A stretch of DNA of 64,000 bases from the NCBI RefSeq assembly GCF_002214465.1, contig NZ_CP015101.1, positions 999,013 to 1,063,012 of the forward strand. The letters run 5' to 3'. The notes under the pieces were generated by a model. That model was not told the origin of the DNA and ran no database searches. It saw only the letters and a list, made by a program, of their open reading frames with translations. The DNA is from Thermococcus barossii (GTDB lineage: Archaea; Methanobacteriota_B; Thermococci; Thermococcales; Thermococcaceae). Numbering within the stretch: position 1 is the first letter of the stretch; each line of letters starts with the position of its first letter. Position numbers and translations under genes: made by a program. Shown here in pieces: positions 13,747-45,410 of the stretch.

Positions 13747-14367
13747 TCAGCTTCCACCGGATTCTTTTCCGTAGCCCCGGTATATCTCAAGGCTCCTCCT
13801 TGCCCTCGCGCGGGGAATGCTGTGCCCCATCAGCGCAACTATTCTGTCGGCCTTTGCCTTGCCGTGGTGGAGCATCTTGGTTTCCGTCTTTATCTTCTCG
13901 ACCCGGAAGGTGTAGCCGCCGACCTCGAGAACCTCGCCGACGACGAATTCCTCGTTTCTCGGGACCTTGACCTTGAATGCCTGCGTTACTCCCTTCGGCA
14001 GATAGATGGAGACCTTAATGACCTTGGGATAGGTCAGGCTCTCGCCCCAGAGCGTTTTTATCTCGCCTATCTCGGCCTTGTTAACGCGTTTGTCCCCCTC
14101 AAGCTCTATGCCCGTGATCCTGACCTCGTCGTCATCCGTCTCGACGATGTCGCCGACCCTTATCTCCTCGCCCTCCGGTAATTCAACCTCGCCCTTGAAG
14201 CTCCTCTCGTGCTTGCTGACGATGAGCGGAACCTTCACGAGCTTGGGGAGCGTTATGATCCAGACGTTGCCGCACTCGTTGCAGCGGAGGGTGAGCTCCC
14301 TTCCCCTCTCCTTGATGACCTCGACGTCATCACTACCGCACTCTGGACAGATGAAGTACTCCTCCAT
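13747..14367 (-). CDS. HVO_0476-family zinc-ribbon protein
   Basis: 206 residues from the ATG at 14367 (GGTGAG four bases upstream; an upstream GTG would add three). An N-terminal zinc ribbon (CPEC near residue 7 and CNEC near residue 30) is followed by beta-rich domains ('LPEGEEIRVGDIVETDDDEVRITGIE') and a basic C-terminus. It matches the archaeal HVO_0476 zinc-finger family, whose function is unknown; the architecture suggests nucleic-acid or ribosome binding. TATA (CTTTATAA) lies just upstream. The stop is followed by a T-rich terminator-like tract. Confidence 0.82.
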   Translation of the reverse strand: MEEYFICPECGSDDVEVIKERGRELTLRCNECGNVWIITLPKLVKVPLIVSKHERSFKGEVELPEGEEIRVGDIVETDDDEVRITGIELEGDKRVNKAEIGEIKTLWGESLTYPKVIKVSIYLPKGVTQAFKVKVPRNEEFVVGEVLEVGGYTFRVEKIKTETKMLHHGKAKADRIVALMGHSIPRARARRSLEIYRGYGKESGGS

Positions 14368-14516
14368 GTCTCTCACCAGAGGGAAGAAGAGGGAAGGCGT
14401 TTATAAAGGTGGCGTATAACCCAAATCCCAGCACTAAACTACAGAGTGGAGCTGTCGCAGATCCTGTCATTGTGTAACTACTTTGCTTTCTCAGTCCCAA
14501 CATAAAATCAAAGACT

Positions 14517-16367
14517 TTATGTGCCGTTTGCACCTAATAGCTCCAAGGTTTTAAGTGCAAAATATGTTTCCTGAAGTCCACCATAGGACGTATCTCCTGA
14601 ATAAAGTCTAAATCCTCCGTATTGGTACTTAAGTGCGTTGATAAACTCAAGCAATCCTTCGATATCTTGGGGGCAGTACCCCATGTATGTCAGTGCTTGG
14701 ACAGCGTAGAGTGTGTTGTACAAATCAGGAGCTCCCCATCCGCCTTCATGTTGAAGACCCAGGATGTAGTTTAATGTGGTGTTATCCTTATAGTCATAAC
14801 CCAATTCGTGAAGGAGAATAACGGCTTGGACCGTGTTGTGAAACACTAAAAAAGTCCTGTTACTATAATTTCCAAAACTTCCGTCTGGATTCTTAAGTGA
14901 GAGAATTTCCCTAACTAATGTTTGACTAGTTTGCTCTCCGATAATAATACCAATCTCTTTTCCGAGTCTCACGATATAGACCCAACCTGGATCAGATAAT
15001 AACACATCTTTTCTGTTTTCAAGATACAACTTAAGTATTCTCTCAGCTTCGTCTCTTATGTATTCTGCGTCCTGTTTGTCAATCTCAACTTCAATTAACT
15101 TGTATGTCTTGTAAACTAGATACAAAGGCACGGGATCATCGGGAGTGTATGGTGATCTGTTATAAACTGCACGCTTTAAAAAGCTCTTGGTGTGATTCTT
15201 GTCAAGATTTATACCAAGAAAATCCGCAACGTAAAGAGCCATGTATGTGGCGTATGGCTCACTCTGAGTGTGAAATGGAAGCGCAAAACCTCCTAAGGGA
15301 CTTTCCCAGGAGTGTATGAAGTCCAAGATGTCGTTATCTGGAAGATGATTAGTTAGAACCATTATCCTAACTGCATGATAGGTTCCCTGAGGCTCCCCAT
15401 AATTCATACCCCAGATATGGAAGCCACCATCGGGTAATTTCTGAGCAAGAACATACTTATAGGCAATCGTGGATAAATTTTTAGTAAGTAGCCCTTCTCT
15501 GGATAAGAATTCAAGAGCCTCTGCAACATAAAAGATTGGAGGATTCTTTGATATTTCAACTTCCACCTTTTCATGCGAGTGTTGCAGGTATGTTATTATT
15601 CTCTGATAGTTGTCGAGATGAGTGTAAGAAATGTTAAGCATTGTAAGGGCCTTTGAGTAAATATTAACTTCTAAGAGGTATTGCAAGATTCCACGGGTAT
15701 TCTCCTGTAAAGAGACGCTATTAAATTTGTTAACATAATATGCAGCAGTATTTTGGAGTCGGCTCATATTATAATCTAAATAATAGAGAATCTTGATAGC
15801 CAAGTAGGTTACATCTTGTTCCCCATAGATAAACGTACCATTTTCTGTTTGGGCCGAAAGAACGAATGAAATGATTCTATCTGGATTTTGTGGTGTTAGG
15901 TTCATCATTTTCATGCTAGCTACCCAGTAGTGAAGGCGTGCAAACGAAGAGAGTGTGCCCGTTGCAGTATCATTTATAATATGTTCCTCTTGGGATATTA
16001 ACCAAGCTTTTGTCTGAGCTGAATTAAACGGAGATTCGTTAATAAGCGAGAGTGTGCTCAGAAAATAGTAAGTTGATAAAATGTTGGGTGTGATTGTATC
16101 AACTATCTCAGTAAAACCGCCATCCGGTCTTTTGGCCAAATGAAGACGTTTTGCAGTGTACTCTACCCAATTATCTCCTAAAAATTGTGTTACATTAAAA
16201 TTCGACGGTAAACAGTTTAGGTGAGGCTCTTCAAATGTATAACGCAGGTGTATGTTCAACTTGGGATTATTTGATAGTTTAGTGGTATTCTGACTGTTTG
16301 CCCACCATATAAAGGAAAAGATTAAAAGAATAGATATAACAAATGCACTTATGTTAGTTCTATTCAT
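14517..16367 (-). CDS. membrane-anchored alpha/alpha-toroid (prenyltransferase/squalene-cyclase repeat) protein
   Basis: 616 residues. A single N-terminal membrane helix (about 6-26) leaves the rest outside the cell. The body holds repeats of the alpha/alpha-toroid type, with recurrent glycine-aromatic turns: 'PDGGF' (about 87), 'ENGTF', 'PDGGFHIW', 'PLGGFALP', 'PDGSFGNY', 'EGGWGAPD' and 'YGGFRLY'. These are the QW-like repeats of the prenyltransferase/squalene oxidase superfamily, but I see no DXDD cyclase motif. Such toroids act as cyclases, prenyltransferases or protein-binding scaffolds. The gene is markedly AT-rich compared with its neighbours, suggesting transfer. It follows the secreted-protein gene by 15 bp and likely forms an operon with it. 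Confidence 0.75.
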   Translation of the reverse strand: MNRTNISAFVISILLIFSFIWWANSQNTTKLSNNPKLNIHLRYTFEEPHLNCLPSNFNVTQFLGDNWVEYTAKRLHLAKRPDGGFTEIVDTITPNILSTYYFLSTLSLINESPFNSAQTKAWLISQEEHIINDTATGTLSSFARLHYWVASMKMMNLTPQNPDRIISFVLSAQTENGTFIYGEQDVTYLAIKILYYLDYNMSRLQNTAAYYVNKFNSVSLQENTRGILQYLLEVNIYSKALTMLNISYTHLDNYQRIITYLQHSHEKVEVEISKNPPIFYVAEALEFLSREGLLTKNLSTIAYKYVLAQKLPDGGFHIWGMNYGEPQGTYHAVRIMVLTNHLPDNDILDFIHSWESPLGGFALPFHTQSEPYATYMALYVADFLGINLDKNHTKSFLKRAVYNRSPYTPDDPVPLYLVYKTYKLIEVEIDKQDAEYIRDEAERILKLYLENRKDVLLSDPGWVYIVRLGKEIGIIIGEQTSQTLVREILSLKNPDGSFGNYSNRTFLVFHNTVQAVILLHELGYDYKDNTTLNYILGLQHEGGWGAPDLYNTLYAVQALTYMGYCPQDIEGLLEFINALKYQYGGFRLYSGDTSYGGLQETYFALKTLELLGANGT

Positions 16368-16382
16368 TCTTTTTCACGCTCC

Positions 16383-17132
16383 TCATGGTCGGAACACGTA
16401 CGCATTAGACTGGATCCCTTCTCCATCTTGGGTATCATAGAATAAGAAGCTACTGTGAGTGTGTCCCTCCACTCTTGTAATTCCGAAGAAAGATAGTCCC
16501 TCAACACCTGAATATCTGTATCCTAAGTAATCCCTATGGCTGTCACTTATCGTTATTGTGGTAGTGCCAGAATCACCTCCAATGGAGAATCCCGGAGGGG
16601 CACTAACTGACACAGAGATTCCAACGAACTTGACACTAATACCTAATGTTATTGATTTTGATGTGTAGCTAATTGACCACCAATAGTCATACGGTTCAAG
16701 CCAGCTAGCACCCGAAGAATATCCACTAACACTAACTTCTTGCGAGCTGAACCATGTTGCTGTTATGGAAGTATATGACGAAATGTAGACATCTCCAGAT
16801 GGCAGGGTAAAAGCTTTTCGGAATCTGTAATCATCATCTGAACCCGCCCAACTCCCGCTAGGGGTTACCAGACCTGCTTTGATGGAAATTGGATCCTCTT
16901 TCTGCGAGGAGAAATATCTATTCACAGCTTCGAATACTGCTTTCCTGTCCATGCCGGGTGTATCTGGGATGGAAACCATACCATTTTTCATTGTTATAGT
17001 AATCATCTGGCCATTCACGGACACTTGGTAGGTATGAATCTCTGGCTGGTTCCTATAGTTGGCTGCACTTGCTCCCTGCATCATTGCTCCAAACACCAAA
17101 AGGGCAATCAACCATACTATATGCCTCTGCAT
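16383..17132 (-). CDS. secreted protein of unknown function, partner of the toroid protein
   Basis: 249 residues from the ATG at 17132, preceded by a run of G that serves as ribosome site. A Sec signal peptide ends in 'GASA|A' (about residue 24). The mature protein starts with a short 'VNGQMITITMKNG' strand pair and a helix, followed by a Ser/Thr/Tyr/Trp-rich beta region ('SWLEPYDYWWSISYTSKSITLGISVKF'). There is no C-terminal membrane helix, so it is probably released or held by the toroid protein encoded 15 bp downstream. I do not recognise the family. AT-rich promoter sequence (ATTATAAAAAATATT, about 17155-17170) lies upstream. Confidence 0.7.
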   Translation of the reverse strand: MQRHIVWLIALLVFGAMMQGASAANYRNQPEIHTYQVSVNGQMITITMKNGMVSIPDTPGMDRKAVFEAVNRYFSSQKEDPISIKAGLVTPSGSWAGSDDDYRFRKAFTLPSGDVYISSYTSITATWFSSQEVSVSGYSSGASWLEPYDYWWSISYTSKSITLGISVKFVGISVSVSAPPGFSIGGDSGTTTITISDSHRDYLGYRYSGVEGLSFFGITRVEGHTHSSFLFYDTQDGEGIQSNAYVFRP

Positions 17133-17257
17133 TCGCCCCCCCCATAAGATAGTCAAATATTTTTTATAATAAGGATATTTAAATCTTTCGTTTTGTTAGT
17201 ACTGATGCACAAATTTTTAACATTGTTATAAATTTACTGTAATAGATTGTAAAAAGG

Positions 17258-18544
17258 TTAACTAAGGAGCCAACGCCAGAGTGGGACGAATTTGACGGTT
17301 TTCTCTTCAACCTGCCGAACGTCCTCGTAATCCCAGGTTATCACTGTGAGGTTTTTGCAGTTCAATGACTTCGAGGCCCTCAAGAGAGCCTTGAGCTCGC
17401 GGTCCATTGTCGTGGGTTCTTCAACATCATAGCTAACCTGTATTAGCTCGACTACCTTTAGGCCCCTCAAGAGGACGAAATCAACCTCTCCCTTTCCGTC
17501 GTCCCAGTAGCGAACCTCCAGAAGGGGGTCGTAGTAGTGTTTCCGTCTGAGAAGTTCCACTGCCACTATGTTTTCAATTCTATGTCCCAGGTCTCCAACG
17601 CCAAAAACGCTTACAAAGCCCGTATCGGCGATATATATTTTGGAGGTGCTCCTTAGAGACTCAACGTCACTTGGATGATACTTCCTCACGGGAATCACAA
17701 AACCTACGTCCTCGAGGTATGAGAAGTACTCGGAAGTCGTCGGTCTGCTTAGTCTGACACCGCTCGAAGCGAGAAGGCCATTGAGTTTCCGTATGGAAAG
17801 CTTCCTGGCAAAATTCCTCACGGTAACCCGGATCAGCGCTTTCATGGCACCGGTTTTTTCAATTCCATACCTCTCGATCAGGTCGCGGTAAATTATAAGG
17901 TCGAGGTATTCCTGCAGGGTCCTGATCTTTATCAGTTCTGGATAACTCACTATTCCGGGGAAGCCTCCGTACCGGACGTATTCTTCTAGGAATCTCTTGA
18001 GCCGCCCTCTTCTGGCTTCCGTCAGGGGTCGGGAGTGGTCAAAGCCTTTGAAGGACAGAAACTCTCTGAAGGACAGGGGAAAGAGCTGAAAGCTCAGACT
18101 CCTCCCCCTAAGTGAGGTGGCTATCTCCCTGGAGAGAAACTTCGATGACGATCCCGTCACGAACACCCTCGCCCTCTTTCTTTCAAGGAGCCTTCTGACG
18201 AACTTTTCCCAGCCCTGAACCTCCTGAACCTCATCGAGGAACAGGTACATGACGTCCGCGTCGGGGTTGAGCTTGTAGTAGAGCTCCACCAGAGCGGACA
18301 GGTCGCCGGCAGTTAGGCCCTCTAGCCTTTCGTCCTCAAAGTTAACGTAGAAAATCCTCTCTATCGGCAATCCGGATTGGAGGAGCTTTTCCATTGTGTT
18401 GTATAAAAGATGAGTCTTTCCAACTCGCCTCAAGCCAAAGAGAACAACCGCCACATCCATGTTGGCGGGTAGGTTGAGTTCCCTCTCGCGTGTCTCCGGG
18501 ATGCCCAGTTCATGAAACTCGGAGATTACCTCTTCAAGGATCAT
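17258..18544 (-). CDS. AAA ATPase with DUF4143 domain
   Basis: 428 residues from the ATG at 18544 (GTGGT four bases upstream; a GTG at 18553 would add three). The AAA_14 domain has Walker A 'FGLRRVGKTHLL', Walker B 'MYLFLDEVQEV' and sensor 'VFVTGSSSKFL'. A helical and winged-helix linker leads to the C-terminal DUF4143 domain with a PD-(D/E)XK-like core ('WDDGKGEVDFVL', 'LIQVSYD'). This is a widespread prokaryotic family of unproven role. An 8+8-bp palindrome lies directly upstream, between the TATA element and the start, a good place for a repressor. The gene follows the winged-helix membrane protein on the same strand. Confidence 0.85.
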   Translation of the reverse strand: MILEEVISEFHELGIPETRERELNLPANMDVAVVLFGLRRVGKTHLLYNTMEKLLQSGLPIERIFYVNFEDERLEGLTAGDLSALVELYYKLNPDADVMYLFLDEVQEVQGWEKFVRRLLERKRARVFVTGSSSKFLSREIATSLRGRSLSFQLFPLSFREFLSFKGFDHSRPLTEARRGRLKRFLEEYVRYGGFPGIVSYPELIKIRTLQEYLDLIIYRDLIERYGIEKTGAMKALIRVTVRNFARKLSIRKLNGLLASSGVRLSRPTTSEYFSYLEDVGFVIPVRKYHPSDVESLRSTSKIYIADTGFVSVFGVGDLGHRIENIVAVELLRRKHYYDPLLEVRYWDDGKGEVDFVLLRGLKVVELIQVSYDVEEPTTMDRELKALLRASKSLNCKNLTVITWDYEDVRQVEEKTVKFVPLWRWLLS

Positions 18545-18553
18545 CTTGACCAC

Positions 18554-18615: not shown

Positions 18616-19563
18616 TCACTCCCTCAGAAAAACCCTGTATGTTCTCCCTTCCTTGGCTCTCGTTATGAGACCTTTCTCCTCCATCTCGCGGAGGATCATG
18701 CTGACTTTCGCCTTCGAAACTCCAAGCTTCTCGGCGAGCTCGCTCTGGAGGACGGGGCCTTCCCTCAGCATGGCGAGTATTTTCTCTTCATCACTCCTCA
18801 GGTGGGTGAGCTCCTCCTCACGCTTCCTCTCGCGATAGAGGATGTAGCCGTAAACGGAGCCACCTCCTAAGAGAAAGCCGATTATAAAAAGGCCAACGTA
18901 GAGCCACGGTGAGGGCGGCTTTGGAACGGTTATCTCCCCCGAAAAGCCAACTATGAAGTAGAACTCGTCCCCAGGACGGACGTTGCTGCGCTTCCATTCG
19001 AGGAGGAGCCGGTCGGTTGAGCTCTCGACCCTGTCGGGCGATGGGATTATCGGCGAGAGTATTGCGTATCCCCTTGGGACGAGCAGCTGCATGTGAAAGA
19101 CCCCAACTGGCTGGCTGAACTTGATGTAGTACGTGAACTGCTCGTTTCCACCGTTCTCGCTTATCATGCCCCTTGTGATAAAGGTGAGCTCTATCCTGGC
19201 GCTCTGCCCGGGTTTTAGGGTGGGAAATGTCAGGTAGATGGCGTTGGTTCCACCCAAGATTTCCCTCACGGTCACGTTTATCTTCTCGACTCTGTTACCA
19301 AGGTCAAGCACGGCGCTCGCGTTCTCAACGGGATAAGCGGTGTAGATGACATATCCGCTGAGGTTCGTGTTGGACGTCAGGTCTATCTCGATGGTTTCGC
19401 GGATGTTGTTCTGGTCCACTACCTCAAAATAGACTGCATAGGCGTTTATCTCGTAGTCGTACTCCTCCGCACCGACCAACGGGAGGAATATGAGAGACAG
19501 AATAAGGAATAACCCGATTAAAGCTGACTTCCTTCCTCGGGGTTTTTGATCTTCAGCAGCGGG
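18616..19563 (-). CDS. membrane-anchored winged-helix regulator with extracellular domain
   Basis: About 315 residues. A signal-anchor helix (about 14-32) leads to an extracellular beta domain of about 180 residues with several N-glycosylation sequons. A transmembrane helix follows ('PWLYVGLFIIGFLLGGGSVYGYILY', about 220-245), and then a cytoplasmic winged helix-turn-helix ('LQSELAEKLGVSKAKVSMILREMEEKGLI'). This layout implies direct signalling from the cell surface to DNA or chromatin. The start is uncertain: the ATG at 19563 overlaps the previous gene by 46 bases and has no good ribosome site, but no later start would keep the signal sequence. Target genes are unknown; neighbours are candidates. 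Confidence 0.75.
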   Translation of the reverse strand, partial: PAAEDQKPRGRKSALIGLFLILSLIFLPLVGAEEYDYEINAYAVYFEVVDQNNIRETIEIDLTSNTNLSGYVIYTAYPVENASAVLDLGNRVEKINVTVREILGGTNAIYLTFPTLKPGQSARIELTFITRGMISENGGNEQFTYYIKFSQPVGVFHMQLLVPRGYAILSPIIPSPDRVESSTDRLLLEWKRSNVRPGDEFYFIVGFSGEITVPKPPSPWLYVGLFIIGFLLGGGSVYGYILYRERKREEELTHLRSDEEKILAMLREGPVLQSELAEKLGVSKAKVSMILREMEEKGLITRAKEGRTYRVFLRE

Positions 19564-21410
19564 CATACGTCCATACACTCCCTGCAGTGGGTGCAGAGCT
19601 CAGGGTTCACGACTATCTTCCTGCTCCTCTCCTCTATGCTCAGCGCCCCCTCCGGGCACTTGCCGACGCAGACGCCACAGCCAACGCATTCGTAGGCACG
19701 CTTGACGAGATAATAAGCCTGTATCGCCTCGTTGGGGTCATCGGTGTAGGCGCCGTCTGGTCTAAATATAACATCACCCGCCCTTATGTAGTTTTCGCCT
19801 TCCTTGACTTCTCCGAGGATTGGGGCGACTTCTCCAATCCGTTTCAGGTTAACGACTGTGTTAAAGCGGGTTACGAAACCGGTTTCGGTTTTCTCCACCG
19901 TGTACCTCACCGGCTCCCACGAGCGCTCCTCTGGAATATCAACGCCGAGCTCCCTCGCTATGGCCTTCTCTCCCTTGCTCAGCTTCTTCCACCGCCAGAA
20001 GCCGTAGGTTATCCACTCGTCGGGCATTCCAAAGCGTTTCTGCCAGCGTTTGAGTTCGCCCTCCCACTTGGCCCACAGCTCGGGCTTCTCCTCCTTCAGG
20101 GTGTAGATTTCCGCCAGGGAGGCGCTCGGGCAGAGGAAGCAGCCTATCCTGTCGAAGCCCCTCTCATACAGCGGGTTGTAGGGGAGCTCTCTGCTGAGGA
20201 TGTAGAGCCACACCTCAAGCGCGCGCCAGTGGAATATCGGCGAAGCGCCGGTCTCGTTCGGCACCCAGGGATTCTTCCACACCCTCGGCTGCTTGAACCT
20301 CTTTATGCTCTCATACTTCCTCTGGCCGACGAACATGAGGACGCCTTTCGGGTAGTTCTCCTTGATGGAGAGGGTTATGGGGCCGAGCTTGGTGACCTTG
20401 CAGCACCAGCGGTAGTCCCTCCCCGGCGGGGAAAAGACGTGGATGGCGCGCCAGAAGGCGTCGCCGGCATCGGCAACGACGAACTTTATTCCCCTCGGCT
20501 CAAGCTCCTTCCTCAGCTTCTCGACGTATTCGAGCGTTTCCGGGAACTCTATGCCCGTGTTGTTGAAGAAGACGGTGAAGCCCTCGTCGCCGAACTCCTC
20601 CAGCGCCAGACCGAGAACAGCTAAGCTGTCCTTCCCGCCCGAGAAGGCCACCGCTATCGGGAGGTCGGAGTAGCGGGTGGAGACCTTCCTCATGAAGCGC
20701 CTCGCTTCCATCACCTTCCTCTCAAGCTCGATGGAGTTGGCCCTCAACACGTCCTCCATCGTGGCCTTCCTTCCCTCGCGGTAGTTGATGCTCCTCTGCC
20801 TCCTCACCTTGACGCCGGTTCCACGCTCCCTGCTGGCTAAGGCTTCGTAGTCCTTCTTCGCTATGCCCGTTGCGATGACCTCGCCGGCCTGGGAGACCAG
20901 TATTACGTCGTCGTTCCGCTTTATGCTTTGCTCAGCCTCGATTATACCAACGGGCAGGAGGTTGGAGCCGTTCAGTATCGGCTCTATGGCACCTTCATCG
21001 ATGACTATCCACTTTTTCATCGCCTTCCCGAAGCGCTTCCAGAGGGCAGTCGCCCCCTCGACCTTCAGGCCAGGTTTCCAGCGGAGCTCCAGCGGGTCGA
21101 AGCGTATCCAGCCGAAGACGTAGCCATCGAGGATTATCTCGTAGGAGTCATCTTCCCCGGGCGTCTTGTTGAGGAGGATGACCTTGCCATCGAAAAGCTC
21201 GCCCACGTCGACGCCGTAGTGCTCTCGAAATATCGAGCGGATCAGCTCGATGTCCCTCTCGAAGGCGAAGCGCAGGTCGCCCGGGGGAGTGATGTTGAGC
21301 CTGAAAACGCCCTCCTTCCCGTGGAGAGCGCAGCTGTCACCGATGAGCGGGACGTTGCACTTCTCGCACCAGTTTATGTAAGCCTTGCCGAGGTAGACCG
21401 GCCTTCCCAT
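19518..21410 (-). CDS. PAPS-reductase-family protein with PUA-like domain and ferredoxin tail
   Basis: 630 residues from the ATG at 21410 (AGGTGAG upstream). An N-terminal zinc-ribbon-like site (Cys15, Cys18, Cys27, His30) is followed by a PUA-like segment (about 130-200) and the adenylyl-binding P-loop SGGKDS (257-262) of the PAPS reductase/ATP pyrophosphatase fold. 'YRWCCKVTKLGP' and a later Cys pair ('GCFLCPSA') lie in that domain. The C-terminus is a two-cluster ferredoxin with two CxxCxxCxxxCP-type sets. This architecture is shared by archaeal proteins annotated as PAPS reductase family. Whether the substrate is APS/PAPS or a thiolation target (PUA suggests RNA) is not known. Confidence 0.85.
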   Translation of the reverse strand: MGRPVYLGKAYINWCEKCNVPLIGDSCALHGKEGVFRLNITPPGDLRFAFERDIELIRSIFREHYGVDVGELFDGKVILLNKTPGEDDSYEIILDGYVFGWIRFDPLELRWKPGLKVEGATALWKRFGKAMKKWIVIDEGAIEPILNGSNLLPVGIIEAEQSIKRNDDVILVSQAGEVIATGIAKKDYEALASRERGTGVKVRRQRSINYREGRKATMEDVLRANSIELERKVMEARRFMRKVSTRYSDLPIAVAFSGGKDSLAVLGLALEEFGDEGFTVFFNNTGIEFPETLEYVEKLRKELEPRGIKFVVADAGDAFWRAIHVFSPPGRDYRWCCKVTKLGPITLSIKENYPKGVLMFVGQRKYESIKRFKQPRVWKNPWVPNETGASPIFHWRALEVWLYILSRELPYNPLYERGFDRIGCFLCPSASLAEIYTLKEEKPELWAKWEGELKRWQKRFGMPDEWITYGFWRWKKLSKGEKAIARELGVDIPEERSWEPVRYTVEKTETGFVTRFNTVVNLKRIGEVAPILGEVKEGENYIRAGDVIFRPDGAYTDDPNEAIQAYYLVKRAYECVGCGVCVGKCPEGALSIEERSRKIVVNPELCTHCRECMDVCPLLKIKNPEEGSQL

Positions 21411-33811: not shown

Positions 33812-35104
33812 ATGATTGATAAGGTTTACTGCGCCGATGTTCGGCCCGATATGGAAGGCAAACGCGTTAAACTCGCCGGATGGGTTTACAGGAAGAGAGA
33901 GGTCGGAAAGAAGGTGTTCATAGTCCTCCGCGACTCAAGCGGGATAATCCAAACGATATTCAAGAAGGAGCTTAGTGAGGAAGCCTACGCCGAGGCAAAA
34001 AAAGTTGGGATAGAGTCCAGCGTGATAATCGAGGGTGTGGTTAAGGCCGACCCACGCGCACCAACCGGGGTGGAGGTTCAGGCAGATAGGATAGAGATCA
34101 TCCAGAACGTGGACTTCTTCCCGATAACGAAGGACGCGAGCGACGAGTTCCTGCTGGATGTCAGGCACCTGCACCTGCACTCACCGAAGGTTGCCAGCGT
34201 AATGAAGGTCAAGGCGACGATGATGCAGGCCGCTCGCGAGTGGCTCCTCCAGGACGGCTGGTACGAGGTCTTTCCCCCAATACTCGTCACCGGTGCCGTC
34301 GAGGGCGGCGCGACCCTCTTCAAGCTCAAGTACTTCGACAAGACCGCCTACCTCAGCCAGTCGGCCCAGCTCTACCTTGAGGCTGCCATCTTCGGCCTCG
34401 AAAAGGTCTGGTCGCTAACTCCGAGCTTCAGGGCCGAGAAGAGCAGGACGAGGAGACACCTCACCGAGTTCTGGCACCTGGAGCTTGAGGCCGCCTGGAT
34501 GGACCTCTGGGACATCATGAAGGTGGAGGAGGAGCTGGTCAGCTACATGGTGCAGAGGACGCTTGAGCTCAGGAGGGGCGACATCGAGACCTTCAGGAAG
34601 GACTTCACCACGCTCAAGAACACGGCCCCGCCCTTCCCGCGGATAAGCTACGATGAAGCAATCGACATACTCCAGAGCAAGGGAGTTCAGATAGAGTGGG
34701 GCGAGGACATGGGCGCCGACGAGGAGAGGATTTTAACGCAGGAGTTCGAGAGCCCCTTCTTCGTCTACGGCTATCCGAAGCACATCAAGGCCTTCTACAT
34801 GAAGGAGGACCCGGAGGACCCGAGGAAGGTTCTTGCCGCCGACATGCTCGCGCCGGAAGGCTACGGCGAGGTCATCGGCGGCTCACAGCGTGAGGACGAC
34901 TACGACAAGCTCGTGCAGAGGATTCTCGACGAGGGAATGGATCCGAAGGACTACGAGTGGTACCTCGACCTGAGGAAGTACGGCTCTGTTCCGCACAGCG
35001 GTTTCGGCCTCGGCCTTGAGAGGCTCGTCGCCTGGGTGCTGAAGCTCGACCATGTCCGCTGGGCCACGCTCTTCCCGAGGACGCCGAGCAGGCTGTATCC
35101 GTAG
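33812..35104 (+). CDS. asnS: asparaginyl-tRNA synthetase
   Basis: 430 residues from the ATG at 33812 (GGAGGTGGT upstream). A class IIb synthetase: N-terminal OB-fold anticodon domain ('GKRVKLAGWVYRKREVGKKVFIVLRDSSGIIQ'), motif 2 'FRAEKSRTRRHLTEFWHLE' and motif 3 'GFGLGLERLVAWVL'. It is closer to the Pyrococcus AsnRS pattern ('YGSVPHSGFGLGLERL', 'HLHLHSPK') than to AspRS, so I assign Asn rather than Asp. The stop is followed at once by a 10-bp-arm hairpin. Confidence 0.9.
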   Translation: MIDKVYCADVRPDMEGKRVKLAGWVYRKREVGKKVFIVLRDSSGIIQTIFKKELSEEAYAEAKKVGIESSVIIEGVVKADPRAPTGVEVQADRIEIIQNVDFFPITKDASDEFLLDVRHLHLHSPKVASVMKVKATMMQAAREWLLQDGWYEVFPPILVTGAVEGGATLFKLKYFDKTAYLSQSAQLYLEAAIFGLEKVWSLTPSFRAEKSRTRRHLTEFWHLELEAAWMDLWDIMKVEEELVSYMVQRTLELRRGDIETFRKDFTTLKNTAPPFPRISYDEAIDILQSKGVQIEWGEDMGADEERILTQEFESPFFVYGYPKHIKAFYMKEDPEDPRKVLAADMLAPEGYGEVIGGSQREDDYDKLVQRILDEGMDPKDYEWYLDLRKYGSVPHSGFGLGLERLVAWVLKLDHVRWATLFPRTPSRLYP

Positions 35105-35127
35105 CAACCTTTGCAAGGCAAAGGTTG
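35105..35127. repeat. hairpin after asnS, left edge of the accessory patch
   Basis: CAACCTTTGC and GCAAAGGTTG form a perfect 10-bp inverted repeat with a 3-nt loop, starting at the base after the asnS stop codon. It can act as a terminator-like structure. A closely related hairpin lies next to tRNA-Arg at 37447-37471, so it may also be a dispersed repeat or an element border. Confidence 0.7.
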
Positions 35128-35207
35128 ACCAAAGTTCGTGATTCATTCTCAATTTTTTGTTACAAGGTTTTTGCGTTTGAGTTGGAATTCATGAGAGGAA
35201 TGCGTTA

Positions 35208-35369
35208 ATGACGAGCTTAATGGGCCATCAACACGAGATCTACAACATGAAAATGCTCCACGAGAACGCGGCTACAGAGATCGATGTGATTCTACTGAAA
35301 GCTCTGTGGAGGGAGATAAAGAGGATGATGAGGATAAACGTGATTGAGGTTGAAGAAGAGAAGAAATAA
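35208..35369 (+). CDS. possible small protein (53 aa)
   Basis: An ATG-started frame of 53 codons with a charged, protein-like helical composition: 'ATEIDVILLKALWREIKRMM' then an acidic-basic tail. Internal ATGs at 35220, 35247 and 35253 are alternative starts. The ribosome site is weak. Nothing recognisable. It could be a remnant of a larger gene in this accessory patch. The rest of 35128-35425 shows no other gene. Confidence 0.35.
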   Translation: MTSLMGHQHEIYNMKMLHENAATEIDVILLKALWREIKRMMRINVIEVEEEKK

Positions 35370-35425
35370 AAACTCTGCATCATCAACGACCTGCCTTAAG
35401 ATTGTTTATTCGGACTCTCGGCTTT

Positions 35426-35878
35426 TCATTTTTTGTTTTCTGTGTACCAACCAATCGCTACAAAGGATATAACCCATATAATGACAACGAGTTTTCCTAC
35501 CATAGACCCTGCAGATAGCCATCCTGCCATTGCAAATGAGACAAAGGCAATGATTCCAAGTATTATATTCAATCCATTTTTCACCCTACGTTTCCCATCC
35601 TCAATGCCCACTATCAGAATCATAATTATCATCGCTGCTGCAATATACAATACAGCTAACAGTAGCTCATTGCCACTTATTATGTTGAGTGCAGTATTGG
35701 CTGCTTCTTTACCATTAACACCTGCCCCCCTGAGTACAGTATAGACAAAAAATATGATCACCATCATTAATGCGGAATTTGCTATCAAGTTAATCGCCTC
35801 GCCAAAAACAAAAATTGCTTGTCCCAAGTATCTAAGGATTTTCGTTATTTTTTCTCTCCCCAAATTTCTTCCACCCAT
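35426..35878 (-). CDS. four-helix membrane protein of unknown function
   Basis: 150 residues from the ATG at 35878, with GAGGTGAG just upstream. Four hydrophobic helices (about 20-45, 60-85, 98-120, 123-145) with short loops and a charged N-terminus ('GREKITKILRYLGQ'). AT-rich relative to the core genome. It follows the frameshifted membrane-protein gene by 28 bp and probably forms an operon with it. No family recognised. Confidence 0.65.
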   Translation of the reverse strand: MGGRNLGREKITKILRYLGQAIFVFGEAINLIANSALMMVIIFFVYTVLRGAGVNGKEAANTALNIISGNELLLAVLYIAAAMIIMILIVGIEDGKRRVKNGLNIILGIIAFVSFAMAGWLSAGSMVGKLVVIIWVISFVAIGWYTENKK

Positions 35879-35906
35879 TTCCCTCACCTCACGGCAACTA
35901 GTTGCC

Positions 35907-36520
35907 CTAATAAAGGTTAAGAAGCTCCTCCTCAACAGCTTCCTCATTTTCCTCAATCCATTTCAAAAACTTAGACAATTTGTTATACAGTTTCTTGCTT
36001 TCTTCATTAATCTCTGGCGTTTTGCCGCTTCTTATCAGTTTGTTATAGTTCTCTAGGTTGAATTTCTTACTCTTAAGATATCTATCTTCCTGCTAATTCT
36101 TACAATGTGCCCCAATTCAATAACCGACGGATTATATCCACTTATAACCTGAGTTGGGGAGTGCAATTTTTGTGATTGGGCTCGAATATAGTCCCGTCTT
36201 AGGAAAGTCTCTACCGGTGTAATCTCCTCGAATCCTGAATTTCTCGTGATATTTTTCTTCACCTTCGGGAGAACTTCTTCTTCTATATATCCTATCAATG
36301 CCAATTTTAGTTCATCTAAATTTATTCTACTTTTTATGCTCTCTTTGATGTTTTTGGTTGCAGTTAGCACTTGTAGGCCAATGAATGCTGCCATTAAAAC
36401 TTGGAGGAGCGCATTAATCTTGGGCATGTCCTTATCTGGAATAACCCAAAAAATAAGAATAGCATATACAATAACAAATATAACTATCATTGCAGCTGAA
36501 AACGTATATCCACTATCCAT
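35907..36520 (-). pseudogene. membrane protein gene split by a -1 frameshift
   Basis: From the ATG at 36520 (GGTGGAGGAGG upstream) one frame encodes 155 residues: two N-terminal membrane helices ('SAAMIVIFVIVYAILIFWVI', 'LLQVLMAAFIGLQVL') and a soluble part, stopping at 36053. A second frame, open from 36092 to a stop at 35907, has no usable start codon but encodes 61 protein-like residues ('YNKLIRSGKTPEINEESKKL', 'FLKWIEENEEAVEEE'). A single -1 shift between 36092 and 36053 would join them into about 210 residues ending 28 bp before the next gene's ATG. I see no classic slippery heptamer, so mutation or assembly error is likelier than programmed shifting. Confidence 0.6.
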
Positions 36521-36856
36521 TCTAGGAGCCTCCTCCACCCTTTTGATAACGCAATACCCCTATTACGAGCACGTATAAGGACATTTCGCCGCGCCGTGTT
36601 GGGAAAACGCCAGGATTTTGAACATCACGCAAAGTTCTGGTTCCAAGACAAAACCTACCCCGAGCAATCCTCCATCAACTAGAAAAATTCGCAAACCTTA
36701 TGTATAGAAAAACCCACAAAATTTGTTGTAAATTATGGAGGTTAATGCTATGAAACTGAGGTGAGCGCATGACCACCCAAGGGAGCTCCAACGCTAAAAT
36801 CATCGAGCCGCTGGTGAAGATGAAATAAAGAAAAAGCTGATCGTATCATTACTTTC

Positions 36857-37059
36857 CTAATCAATGTATTTGATGATAATCTTCCTGGTGTTCCCCTTCC
36901 GCCGTAGATCTCCATGGAGTACCACAGCTTTCGCGCCAAGGTTCTTGGGCTTTTGAATGTGTCGTTCTAAGTCAACATTAGCTCCGTCAAGGATACTGCA
37001 ATAACTCCATCGAAATGCTCCACATAACCCAGAACCTGTCTATAAACTTTGGAGTCCAT
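36857..37059 (-). pseudogene. remnant of a small gene (about 65 aa) broken by a frameshift
   Basis: From an ATG at 37059 the minus strand encodes 30 residues ('MDSKVYRQVLGYVEHFDGVI' onward) and stops at 36967. In the -1 frame the coding continues as 'LERHIQKPKNLGAKAVVLHG' and 'DLRRKGNTRKIIIKYI' to a stop at 36857. Joined, they give a compact basic protein of about 65 residues that I do not recognise. A TATA-like CCTTAAATAC and a hairpin (37069-37085) lie just upstream, as in an expressed gene. Confidence 0.45.
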
Positions 37060-40948: not shown

Positions 40949-43384
40949 TCAGGAAATGACCCTCTTGTAATAGTACCAGAGTCCCCTTATGATGTCGCGC
41001 ACCTCTATCATGGTGAAGGTTTCGGTTCTATCAATGAGCCTCGCCGTCTCCTCCCAGCTGTGGGCCTGCAGAACCCGGTAGATGAGGAGCTTAATCTGCC
41101 TCTCATCGAGGTAGGGCTTCATCCAGCCGTCGAGGAAGTAGAGCTTGACTACCGGCTTCACCGCATCAACCACCGTGTCGTAGGTCAGAACCTTGCCCGT
41201 GAAGGCATCCAACCTCTTCCTCTGCACCTCCGTGAGGTGAACCGGGTAATCCACCGCCTCACCGAAGGGTGTCTCGAAGAGCCAGCGCGCTATCTCAGGC
41301 TCAAGCTCCCTGTGGGTGTCGCCGAGCCATTCCGTGAGCCTTATCCTGAACTCGTCGTTGGCCTGGCGAATGAGCTTCTTGGCCCTCTCACTTATTGGCT
41401 TGAGGACTATGGCCGTAAACTCGCCGCTGACGGGGTTTCTGGCTGGGCTGAGGTGAACCACCGCGAAGCCGTTCCTGACCCAGAAGCGGACCAGTTCCTC
41501 ACTCGCACCAAACCCAGAGCCAATCCAGTCGAGGCCCTTCTCCCTGGCCTCCTTCTCAAGGAGTTCAAGCGCCTTGCTGCCCAGCCCCATGTCCATGGCA
41601 TCGGGGTGGGTGGCTATCCTCACTATGCGGTAGCCCTTCAGCTTCGCGAACTCCTTCGCCATGTGGTGCTTGACCATCATGTCGGGGATTATGTTGCCCC
41701 TCGGCTTGTAGCCCTTGGCCATCTTCTCGATTACCTTCTTCGGGATATTGCCCTCCTCTGCTATCTGGATGGCCGTCACTATCTTGCCGTTCTTCAGGCG
41801 GAGGACGCGCGCCCTGTGGTGGGGAGCATCGGCAAGCAAAGCCACGTCGCTCGGCCTGTTGCGGTAGTGGGCGAGAATGTAGATGCCCACGAAGTTCCTG
41901 AGGTCGGGCCTGTCGTTCTCGAACCAGTCATCGAGGTCGGGTTCCTCGAAGTAGACCTCCTTGTTCCTTATCAGTTCGTAGTCCTCATCCGTGAGCTCAA
42001 CCGGCTCCGCGTCAAGCAGGAGGACGTCGAATAGCCATCTTTCGATGGGGTCGTTCTCAGCGTAGCGTATCGGCTCCTCCATGTGGAGCTCCTTAAAGGG
42101 GCGCTTCTCCCTGGCTTTCTTCAGGAACTTGACGGAGAATCCCCTGCCAGCTCCTTCGTAGCCGTGTACTGTGGAGGAGTAAACGACACGGGGTTTGCTT
42201 AGATACCTGTGGAGTATCGGCACGTGGATTCCAGCGGCCTCGTCGAGGATGTACAGGTCGGCGGTCTTGCGGTAGCCCTCGGCGGGGGGGTAATACCTGA
42301 GCCCAATCTTCCTCGCGTAGAGCTCCTTTATCAGGCCCTTCTCCTCGACTACGTGGGGCCTGAAGCCGAGCCTTTCAAGGGCCCTCTTGGCAAAGCGGAA
42401 GAGTGCCTGGACGTTCTCCGGCTCGGGGGCCGTGACGACCACCCTTGTACGCTTGCCGAGGGCCAGGGCAAAGCCTATCGCGGCAATGCCTACGGAGACG
42501 CTCTTTCCACGCCCCCTGTCCGCGGTGAGGACGAGCATCCCCTCATCCTCAACCAGCCCTTCGAATGCCTTAAGAACCTCAACCTGCCCCTCAGTGAGGG
42601 CCATTTCGTAGAGCTCGCGGGGGAAGAGGATCTCCTCCGGAATCTCGACACCCTTCCGGGCTTTAATCTTCGCCTGGGTCTTGCTCCTTCTCGGCTTCTT
42701 CTTCGCTTTCCCGTTCTCGGTGATGATGTAGATTCCGTCATGCTCGGCGAACTTCCTTATAAGGCGCCTGTTGAAGCGCTTCTTCACGTCGTCTATCGTG
42801 TACGGTGGAGTTACGAGGCTCTTGTGGAAGCCCGTCCACATCTTCTTCCACTTCTCGAAGGGATGGGCGAGTATGAATATCAAACCGCCGCCACGGACGG
42901 TCTCGATAATCCTGCCAAGGTCGTTGGGGGAGTAGTCGTAGCTCATGTCGAGTATAAGGAGGTCGTACGTCCTCCCGAGGATATCGCGGGTGTGCTTGAA
43001 GGTGACGGCCTTAACCCTGGCGCTTGAGCTGGCAAGGACGTCGAAGTGCTTCCTGAACGCTTCGTAGCGTTTCCGCCCGAAGGTCTCTTCGCCGAGGGCA
43101 TCGGTGGCGTAGAGAACCTCGATTTCCTTCTCGCTCTCGTCCCTCAGCCGCTTCTCGCGGAGGTCGTCGAGAATCTCCCCCAGGGTTCTGGCAGAGGCCC
43201 CTGCCAGAATGCCTGCCAGCTCGGCCTTTCTCAGGGTGTCCCCCTCTATGACTATCATTCTCCTGTGAAACTTCTCCAGAGCCTGCGCTAAAGCCGTCTC
43301 GGTGAGCTTGAGAACGGAGTCCTTAACCTTCTCGCCCTTTGCGTACTCTCTCACTTCCTTATCAAAGCGGACCTTGACGGTCAC
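40949..43384 (-). CDS. tmcA: tRNA/RNA cytidine acetyltransferase TmcA (Nat10/Kre33 family)
   Basis: About 811 residues from the GTG at 43384, five bases after GGAGGTGG; a GTG at 43393 would add three. Domains in order: N-terminal domain (DUF1726-like), RecA-like helicase with Walker A 'TADRGRGKSVS' and 'LYILDEAAGI', GNAT acetyltransferase ('IVRIATHPDAMDMGLGSKALELLEKEA') and a C-terminal tRNA-binding region. It makes N4-acetylcytidine using acetyl-CoA and ATP. In Thermococcus kodakarensis the homologue acetylates rRNA, tRNA and other RNAs widely and increases with temperature. It diverges from the S9 peptidase gene. Confidence 0.95.
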   Translation of the reverse strand: MTVKVRFDKEVREYAKGEKVKDSVLKLTETALAQALEKFHRRMIVIEGDTLRKAELAGILAGASARTLGEILDDLREKRLRDESEKEIEVLYATDALGEETFGRKRYEAFRKHFDVLASSSARVKAVTFKHTRDILGRTYDLLILDMSYDYSPNDLGRIIETVRGGGLIFILAHPFEKWKKMWTGFHKSLVTPPYTIDDVKKRFNRRLIRKFAEHDGIYIITENGKAKKKPRRSKTQAKIKARKGVEIPEEILFPRELYEMALTEGQVEVLKAFEGLVEDEGMLVLTADRGRGKSVSVGIAAIGFALALGKRTRVVVTAPEPENVQALFRFAKRALERLGFRPHVVEEKGLIKELYARKIGLRYYPPAEGYRKTADLYILDEAAGIHVPILHRYLSKPRVVYSSTVHGYEGAGRGFSVKFLKKAREKRPFKELHMEEPIRYAENDPIERWLFDVLLLDAEPVELTDEDYELIRNKEVYFEEPDLDDWFENDRPDLRNFVGIYILAHYRNRPSDVALLADAPHHRARVLRLKNGKIVTAIQIAEEGNIPKKVIEKMAKGYKPRGNIIPDMMVKHHMAKEFAKLKGYRIVRIATHPDAMDMGLGSKALELLEKEAREKGLDWIGSGFGASEELVRFWVRNGFAVVHLSPARNPVSGEFTAIVLKPISERAKKLIRQANDEFRIRLTEWLGDTHRELEPEIARWLFETPFGEAVDYPVHLTEVQRKRLDAFTGKVLTYDTVVDAVKPVVKLYFLDGWMKPYLDERQIKLLIYRVLQAHSWEETARLIDRTETFTMIEVRDIIRGLWYYYKRVIS

Positions 43385-43511
43385 GGCCGCCACCTCCCAG
43401 AAGAGAGAGGGCGGGGGGCTTAAAAAGGTTAGGCGGTTTTGAAAGCTTCTCGATAATCATCGAAACGCTAAGCTTTTATACGAAAAAAGCCGAGTTGGTT
43501 CGGTGGTTTCT

Positions 43512-45410
43512 ATGGCGGAAGGTCTGGGTGAGAAAGAGTTAGGGAAGTTCAAGCTCGTCGGAAACATCGACGCCTTCAGAAGGAGGCTCGTCTTTCAGGT
43601 GACGGAGATAAGCCTTGAAAAGGACGACTACTTCTCAAGGCTTTACCTCTACGACGGGAGAAAGGTCAGGCCCTTTACCTCCGGAAAGAAGGACGCGAAC
43701 CCGCGCTTCTCCCCGGACGGGAAGCTGATAACCTTCACCTCAAAGCGCGATAGGGAGAGCAAGGAGGCCGAGCTGTACGTTATTCCAACCGACGGCGGCG
43801 AGGCGAGGCTTTTAGCGAGGTTCAGGTACGGAATCAAAACCCTCCGCTTCACCGAGGACGGGAGGGGAATAGCGGTCGTTACCCCTATAGACATTGAGAA
43901 GAAGCCGAAGGACGACGTCCACGTCATCAGGGAAATTCCCTTCTGGTTCAACGGCGTCGGCTGGGTTTACGGGAAGAGGAGCGTCGTTTACCTGGTGGAC
44001 ATCGAGACCGGCAGGAAGAGGCGTTTAACTCCGAAAAACCTCGACGTCTCGCAGATTAGATTCTATGAAGGAAAGCTCTACTTTGTGGCTCAGGAAGACC
44101 GCGAGAGGAAGCCGATGGTGAGCGACCTCTACGTCCTCGAGGGCAGGAAGGCAAGGAGACTAACCCCCGGAGAGTGGAGCGTGAGTGACTTTATACCGCT
44201 CGACGATGGAACGTTCATCCTCAAGGCCAACACCCGCGAGCGCGGTATTCCCACGAACACCCACATCTACCACTACAACCCCGAGACGGGTGAGCTAAGG
44301 AAGCTCACCGCCAAGCTCGACCGCTCGGCCTACAACTCCCTGAACTGCGATGTTCGAGGGCCTCAGAGGGCGGAGCTGGCTTTTAAAGACGGCTGGGTTT
44401 ATTACGTGGCAACGGACGGCCCGAGGGTGAACCTCTTCAGGGTGAACCTTGGGGGGGAGATAGAGCGCGTCATCGGTGGTGACAGGAGCGTCGAGAGCTT
44501 CGCCATCGGTGACTACATAGCCTTCACCGCCCAGGACGCGGTTACACCAACGGAGCTCTACGTCCTCCGCGACGGGAAGGAGAAAAAGCTCACGGACTTC
44601 AACGGCTGGATAAGAGAGTATACCCTCTCGAAGCCCGAGCACTTCAAGGTTAAAGCCAGCGATGGCGTTGAGATAGACGCATGGATAATGAGGCCCGTTG
44701 ATTTCGAGCCTGAAAAGAACTATCCGGCCGTTCTAGAGATTCACGGCGGGCCTAAAACCGCCTACGGCTACTCCTTCATGCACGAGTTCCACGTTCTTAC
44801 TGCCAAAGGCTTCGTGGTAATCTTCTCCAACCCGCGCGGCAGCGACGGCTACGGGGAAGAATTTGCCGACATCAGAGAGCACTACGGCGAGAGGGATTAT
44901 CAGGACTTAATGGAGGTTGTGGACGAGGCGTTAAAGAGGTTTGACTTCATCGACGAAGAAAGGCTCGGCGTCACCGGCGGCTCCTACGGCGGCTTTATGA
45001 CCAACTGGATAGTCGGACACACGAAGCGCTTTAAGGCCGCTGTAACCCAGCGCTCCATCTCGAACTGGGTGAGCTTCTTCGGCACGACTGACATCGGCTA
45101 CTTCTTTGCACCTGACCAGATAGGAGGCGACCCCTGGAGCAACCTCAACGGCTACTGGGAGAAGAGCCCGCTGAAGTACGCGCCGAACGCCGAAACGCCC
45201 CTCCTCATAATCCACAGCACGGAGGACTACCGGTGCTGGCTGTCGGAGGCCCTGCAGTTCTACACGGCTTTGAAGTACCTCGGCAAGACCGTTGAGCTTG
45301 CCCTCTTCCCCGGCGAGAACCACGACCTCAGCAGGGGCGGAAAGCCGAAGCACCGCGTTAGGCGCCTGGAGCTGATTGCCGGGTGGATGGAGAGGTGGCT
45401 CAAGGAGTGA
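43512..45410 (+). CDS. S9-family acylaminoacyl/prolyl oligopeptidase
   Basis: 632 residues from the ATG at 43512 (GGTGGT upstream). The N-terminal half is a WD40-like beta-propeller ('ANPRFSPDGKLITFTSKRD'). The C-terminal alpha/beta-hydrolase has 'GGSYGG' with the nucleophilic Ser, Asp in 'LIIHSTEDYRC' and His in 'PGENHDLSR'. Such enzymes release acylated amino acids or cut short peptides in the cytosol; no signal peptide is present. TATA (CTTTTATACG near 43470) precedes it. Confidence 0.93.
   Translation: MAEGLGEKELGKFKLVGNIDAFRRRLVFQVTEISLEKDDYFSRLYLYDGRKVRPFTSGKKDANPRFSPDGKLITFTSKRDRESKEAELYVIPTDGGEARLLARFRYGIKTLRFTEDGRGIAVVTPIDIEKKPKDDVHVIREIPFWFNGVGWVYGKRSVVYLVDIETGRKRRLTPKNLDVSQIRFYEGKLYFVAQEDRERKPMVSDLYVLEGRKARRLTPGEWSVSDFIPLDDGTFILKANTRERGIPTNTHIYHYNPETGELRKLTAKLDRSAYNSLNCDVRGPQRAELAFKDGWVYYVATDGPRVNLFRVNLGGEIERVIGGDRSVESFAIGDYIAFTAQDAVTPTELYVLRDGKEKKLTDFNGWIREYTLSKPEHFKVKASDGVEIDAWIMRPVDFEPEKNYPAVLEIHGGPKTAYGYSFMHEFHVLTAKGFVVIFSNPRGSDGYGEEFADIREHYGERDYQDLMEVVDEALKRFDFIDEERLGVTGGSYGGFMTNWIVGHTKRFKAAVTQRSISNWVSFFGTTDIGYFFAPDQIGGDPWSNLNGYWEKSPLKYAPNAETPLLIIHSTEDYRCWLSEALQFYTALKYLGKTVELALFPGENHDLSRGGKPKHRVRRLELIAGWMERWLKE

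Follow-up and report, generated by a model that had tools for sequence, protein, structure and literature searches.

The window, as we call the whole stretch of 64,000 nucleotides analysed here, is carried by a 1.92 Mb chromosome of the Thermococcales type. It contains a pair of intact genes, both on the minus strand and 15 bp apart, the first encoding a secreted protein (the 'partner') and the second a membrane-anchored alpha/alpha-toroid (the 'toroid'). Table 1 lists these genes together with their parts, their flanks and the related loci discussed below. The partner is counted from its ATG; a TTG at position 17156 is likewise open as an alternative start. The two genes are probably co-transcribed. 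Their GC contents are 38.6% (toroid) and 44.7% (partner), against a median of 55.3% in neighbouring genes, and as related loci show a shift in the same direction, AT-richness is a property of the module and not just of this genome. The base composition and spacing confirm what a first-pass annotation, made from the sequence alone, had said of the two genes. Another AT-rich patch, of 40-42% GC, lies at 35000-37000 of the window, and has two small membrane-protein ORFs (35426-35956 and 36053-36538).

Table 1. Features of the gene pair, its site and related loci. Coordinates are those of the window unless a locus is named.
Feature	Coordinates	Strand	Basis or remark
Toroid ORF, 616 aa	14517-16367	-	ORF listing; membrane-anchored extracellular alpha/alpha-toroid, candidate immunity or receptor protein
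Toroid N-terminal membrane anchor helix, residues 3-25	16293..16361	-	AlphaFold model; lipobox instead in some orthologues
Partner ORF, 249 aa from ATG	16383-17132	-	Secreted protein, signal peptide ending ...GASA, no known family
Partner N region, residues 1-62 (leader and short N-terminal domain)	16947..17132	-	Follows chromosomal background
Partner C-terminal domain, residues 63-249, putative effector domain	16386..16946	-	Exchanged along with toroid
Recombination junction, codons 62-65, in conserved TPGMDRK motif	16938..16949	-	Maximum chi-square
Putative archaeal promoter (BRE CGAAAG, TATA TTTAAATA)	17176..17190	-	Read from sequence
Downstream flank, zinc-ribbon protein gene	13747..14376	-	Right border of exchange site; follows species background
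Upstream flank, membrane protein with HTH	18616..19578	-	Adjoins downstream flank at empty sites
fam391 loci	L052:5056-6231, L053:11809-12990, L057:715-1968; L129 and L135		Promoter and leader common with partner
Mevalonate-operon pair loci	L061:6526-11120; also L059, L060, L062		

The toroid belongs to the prenyltransferase alpha/alpha-toroid superfamily (PF00432) by profile and fold alike. In a Pfam profile search it matches PF00432 with E=4.1e-22, and all members of its family match this profile too (24/24); a profile search of the PDB matches it to squalene-hopene cyclase (E 3e-6). An AlphaFold (AF2) model, built from four aligned sequences, has a pLDDT of 84.9 and is all-alpha after an N-terminal hydrophobic helix. 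Foldseek, which gives the fold a probability of 1.00, aligns the model with drimenyl diphosphate synthase over its full length, where the global fit is poor (TM about 0.3), and with RabGGTase beta over one barrel, with a target-normalised TM of up to 0.55. Among orthologues the N-terminal anchor is either a hydrophobic helix or a lipobox (e.g. FATGC), and because the two interchange, outward tethering is a conserved trait of the family. The toroid is thus membrane-tethered, and with the Sec signal peptide of its partner the pair is outward-facing, both as first proposed.

Class II terpene cyclases use DXDD as their catalytic acid motif, protein prenyltransferase beta subunits have Asp, Cys and His as zinc ligands, and the thioester (TED) toroid of alpha-2-macroglobulin has a CxEQ motif. 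DXDD is missing from the window toroid and from most members of its family, three scattered D.DD or DD..D matches occurring in single sequences; CxEQ is missing from the window toroid and is represented among the members by a lone CIEQ in one of them (L054). In 24 relatives, the invariant columns are for the most part structural residues (G, P, T, Y, W, F and L), with E355 in addition. Asp, Cys and His are not among them, which means that the 24 sequences conserve no cyclase acid and no zinc site. We therefore reject terpene cyclase activity (no DXDD, no invariant Asp), prenyltransferase activity and membership of the protein prenyltransferase beta subunits (no conserved zinc ligands in 24 sequences) and a complement-like thioester toroid (no CxEQ). 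The first-pass annotation had found no DXDD motif, with which our motif search agrees, and had supposed that the toroid may bind rather than cyclise; with the known catalytic motifs missing, a binding role is still likely. The host genome encodes a further large secreted protein with prenyltransferase-type repeats (L002, G000:C1 about 41303-44590), which has no neighbour of the partner family.

The partner begins with a signal peptide, after which come a short N-terminal region bearing the motif TPGMDRK..F.AVN.YF and then a C-terminal domain. Neither as a single sequence nor as a profile does it match anything in Pfam, NCBIfam or PDB sequences; a profile search of the PDB returned nothing credible, and no toxin domain was found by profile or PDB match. 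Its AlphaFold model, from five sequences, has a pLDDT of 34. Homologues are present in 14 further group A genomes and, in divergent form, in group B, and the partners of the two groups are homologous (hhalign probability 97%, E 5e-11).

The pair is a real, conserved unit. The toroid family has a patchy distribution, in 24/94 genomes of the order. Close copies (41-66% identity to that of the window, which is counted with them) occur in 15 genomes of the Thermococcaceae, and in 15/15 a partner sequence lies directly upstream. Subfamily B is intact in five genomes (G031, G040, G025, G001 and G070), in most cases at the same conserved position, and subfamily C is present in one (G063). Adjacency and gene order are common to these three divergent subfamilies, at three or more sites. 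Two doubts raised at the outset, that the genes might rarely be neighbours elsewhere and that one of them might be a pseudogene, are dispelled: they adjoin wherever a genome has a close toroid, and in the window neither has become a pseudogene. The suggested search for co-occurrence across archaea bears out the pairing, within Thermococcaceae only in the collections searched; scans of genome contigs and of the rest of the phylum confirmed no relatives outside this family. Nothing in plasmids, phages or viral contigs matches, and we reject cargo of a mobile element; nor does any PADLOC model match at E<=1, and we reject a known anti-phage defence system. N-glycosylation sequons number 17 against 5.9 after shuffling, and are raised in a presumably cytosolic control too, so that the excess is not evidence.

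Downstream of the C pair in G063 lie genes for a small anchored protein, for a second secreted protein, whose signal peptide is almost identical, and for a small membrane protein. A number of relatives of this second secreted protein likewise directly precede membrane proteins that are small and multi-span, and in other places several copies are broken. A second secreted family of the Thermococcaceae (L064:206-1548 and L107-L121), of about 300-350 aa and with the motif DDVFGEGGGISAHMIYTHTYGNT, looks like another effector/immunity family: small membrane proteins follow in several of its loci, and several of its copies are broken.

The pair occupies a site that is empty in most of the genomes inspected, where the HTH gene (or a PAPS-reductase-like gene) adjoins the zinc-ribbon gene, itself present in 88/94 genomes. 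In G070 and G071 the same site holds an unrelated secreted protein, fam391 (about 390-415 aa), which is found there or a few genes away, with no membrane gene following. Between a pair locus (L050) and a fam391 locus (L135), the upstream and leader DNA is 83% identical over 129 bp; profiles of the two proteins align over the signal peptide only, and no homology between the mature proteins was seen. Promoter and leader DNA, being common to both, thus act as a fixed site from which different secreted products are expressed. Beside the pair, at 17258-18553 of the window, is an AAA_14/DUF4143 ATPase gene, an irregular occupant of the site that is found also in G039, G051, G018 and G017 and is missing in many genomes.

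Relatives exchange the C domain and the toroid as a unit, by recombination within the partner gene. Over ten loci of the genus, toroid identity correlates with that of the partner C domain at r=0.963 (Mantel, p=0.0004), and with that of the partner N region at r=0.259 (p=0.05). Its correlation with the flanking genes is r 0.0-0.4. The N region correlates with the flanks fam2, fam3 and fam5 at r 0.44-0.77; the flanking genes, that is, track neither the C domain nor the toroid, and partly track the N region. Residues 1-62 of the window partner are 85% identical to those of L052, 76% to L051 and 55% to L050, whereas its C domain is 46%, 47% and 76% identical to these, respectively, and L055 is the mirror image of this pattern. 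Each of two N types is found with each of two C/toroid types (4/4 combinations). Maximum chi-square analysis places the breakpoints at nucleotides 189-193 of the window partner gene and 186-189 of L055, in the same four codons of both recombinants (permutation p<=0.0005, which holds with third positions only). The other border of the exchange, in a sliding-window scan of the DNA, lies just behind the toroid, before a downstream flank that is about 75-94% identical. Cassettes of type I are those of the window and G047, of type II those of G016, G028 and G017, and of type III those of G060 and G021. In type III, two loci (L054 and L057) have a common toroid sequence but differ at the C end of the partner, so some mixing is tolerated inside a type. 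From linkage alone, too, C domain and toroid would be expected to move together, and these data therefore establish exchange of the unit rather than binding between its parts.

Partners have been lost repeatedly, and the toroid kept. G013 and G071 have in common one clean deletion that removes the partner and leaves promoter and toroid in place, and their orphan toroids, with a dN/dS of 0.12, are still under purifying selection. The partner has an internal deletion in G039, has lost its C domain in G082 and is frameshifted in G048, each with the toroid intact, and G017 also has an orphan toroid. The opposite case is G059, a draft assembly, in which the partner is intact and the toroid has a single-base frameshift; in G028, both genes of the B copy are broken. 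Weighted by length, the chance that at least 5/6 single inactivations fall in the partner is 0.009, a figure based on a small count and partly on draft genomes. Throughout, dN/dS is low, and measurable pairs have no sign of an arms race.

The mechanism that we propose runs as follows. Gene 1 would encode a Sec-secreted effector, composed of a leader, a short N-terminal domain and a variable C-terminal domain, and gene 2 an alpha/alpha-toroid tethered by lipid or helix to the outer face of the membrane. The toroid would bind the C-terminal domain of the partner and shield the producer, acting in immunity or as a decoy. By recombining inside gene 1, related Thermococcaceae swap 'C-domain plus toroid' while the local promoter and leader stay in place. 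The effector is probably an archaeocin-like toxin; we infer its toxicity, as we do direct binding and protection by the toroid. That the cassette pairs a secreted effector with a cognate toroid tethered at the surface, the latter serving as immunity or decoy and the whole being exchanged like a polymorphic toxin cassette, we consider about an even bet. More tentatively, and with chances somewhat short of even, the motif-less toroid of terpene-cyclase/prenyltransferase type may be the tethered immunity protein of an undescribed, exchangeable toxin family of the Thermococcales.

Effector and immunity best explain why an outward-facing pair is conserved, why C domain and toroid are exchanged while the leader in front of them stays constant, and why the toroid persists once the partner is lost. 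The small membrane proteins that follow the second secreted protein of G063 and its relatives we count in favor. Against this reading we count the want of a recognised toxin domain and of a reliable partner model, the intact partner with frameshifted toroid in G059, the differing partner C ends behind the same toroid in L054 and L057, fam391 in G070 and G071 with no membrane gene following, and the uniformly low dN/dS, with no sign of an arms race. The pair had first been interpreted as an extracellular modification or capture system. It is indeed extracellular, but modification or capture is not the best reading, as the swapping of C domain and toroid, the loss of partners and the leader in common with fam391 point instead to an effector/immunity or a recognition pair.

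Recognition is the main rival, although we think it unlikely. Here a secreted or S-layer-associated ligand and a toroid receptor would function in adhesion or in discrimination of self from non-self, their variants defining compatible kin. The exchange and the co-variation are what any cognate ligand/receptor pair would show, and for the variable VARTIG loci, which belong to the same order, self-recognition is one of three suggested roles (PMC8416519). What is less expected is that a receptor should be kept under purifying selection after clean loss of its ligand, unless it reads the ligands of others. It is improbable that these are ordinary variable surface genes with no cognate interaction, whose adjacency and co-variation reflect linkage in a horizontally transferred AT-rich segment. 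Neighbours are expected to be co-inherited, and L054 and L057 attest to some mixing within a type, but linkage accounts neither for a pairing that persists in three subfamilies and at no fewer than three sites nor for selective retention of the toroid after partner loss.

Two further readings assign the pair a metabolic role. The toroid could bind or modify an isoprenoid outside the cell, assisted by its partner, an idea that its terpene cyclase/prenyltransferase fold invites and to which we give a low probability. The main argument for it is that in one genus the A pair lies inside the mevalonate operon, between mevalonate kinase and isopentenyl phosphate kinase, with a second copy of the latter downstream of the pair in L059; in addition, group B adjoins an FAD oxidoreductase of amine-oxidase type. 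The mevalonate setting is not seen at other sites, however, and the site occupied in the window (site A) has no isoprenoid genes; no DXDD stands at a conserved position, no Cys or His is invariant, and cassette exchange and partner loss are left unexplained. Capture of a nutrient or cofactor by a secreted binder and a toroid receptor at the surface, for which the toroid of intrinsic factor offers an analogy, is very improbable. A tethered toroid with a secreted partner would suit it, but no transporter genes are recognised directly beside the pair at site A, the distribution is patchy (24/94 genomes), and the variable C domain is exchanged together with the toroid.

To our knowledge, protein weapons of archaea, and of hyperthermophiles especially, are hardly known. 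The pair is a small and genetically clean case, with two genes, defined types, natural swaps and natural half-deletions. Confirmation of toxin and immunity would make the toroid a new fold among immunity proteins; should the pair turn out to serve recognition instead, it is an equally testable archaeal system of self-recognition.

The first-pass annotation did not recognise the system, and we too found none described, but several are alike in part. The toroid has the alpha/alpha-toroid fold and PDGGF-type repeats of class II terpene cyclases and prenyltransferase beta subunits (drimenyl diphosphate synthase, RabGGTase), and differs in being extracellular, anchored, and without DXDD and zinc ligands. 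Class III bacteriocins of the geobacillin 26 type are, like the partner, Sec-secreted, of about 240-250 aa and from thermophiles, a likeness of size and secretion alone (PMC13176240). Polymorphic toxin systems (PMC3482391) are, like the pair, secreted, with a conserved N part, an exchangeable C-terminal domain and a cognate gene directly downstream. The pair has a short Sec leader in place of a large trafficking domain (RHS, CdiA, LXG and similar), the partner breakpoint being preceded only by the signal peptide and about 40 residues with no Pfam domain, and no toxin domain is recognised in the partner; for these reasons we do not file it as a polymorphic toxin, despite its cassette-like working. 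In those sections of the polymorphic toxin paper at our disposal, neither prenyltransferase nor toroid is mentioned, and a lipobox-anchored immunity protein, Imm65, is exceptional (PMC3482391). The VARTIG loci (PMC8416519) are also of the Thermococcales, patchy and subject to C-terminal recombination, and particular membrane proteins follow particular variants in them. The main text of that paper does not mention a prenyltransferase or toroid, and we reject membership of VARTIG, as the partner family has no Ig or other Pfam domain. The pair, a minimal unit of two genes with no Ig-domain or arCOG07710 large protein, is related to VARTIG in logic, without its defining proteins. The VARTIG authors state that breakpoints at their loci are not yet precisely identifiable (PMC8416519); in the pair, breakpoints of this kind can be placed precisely.
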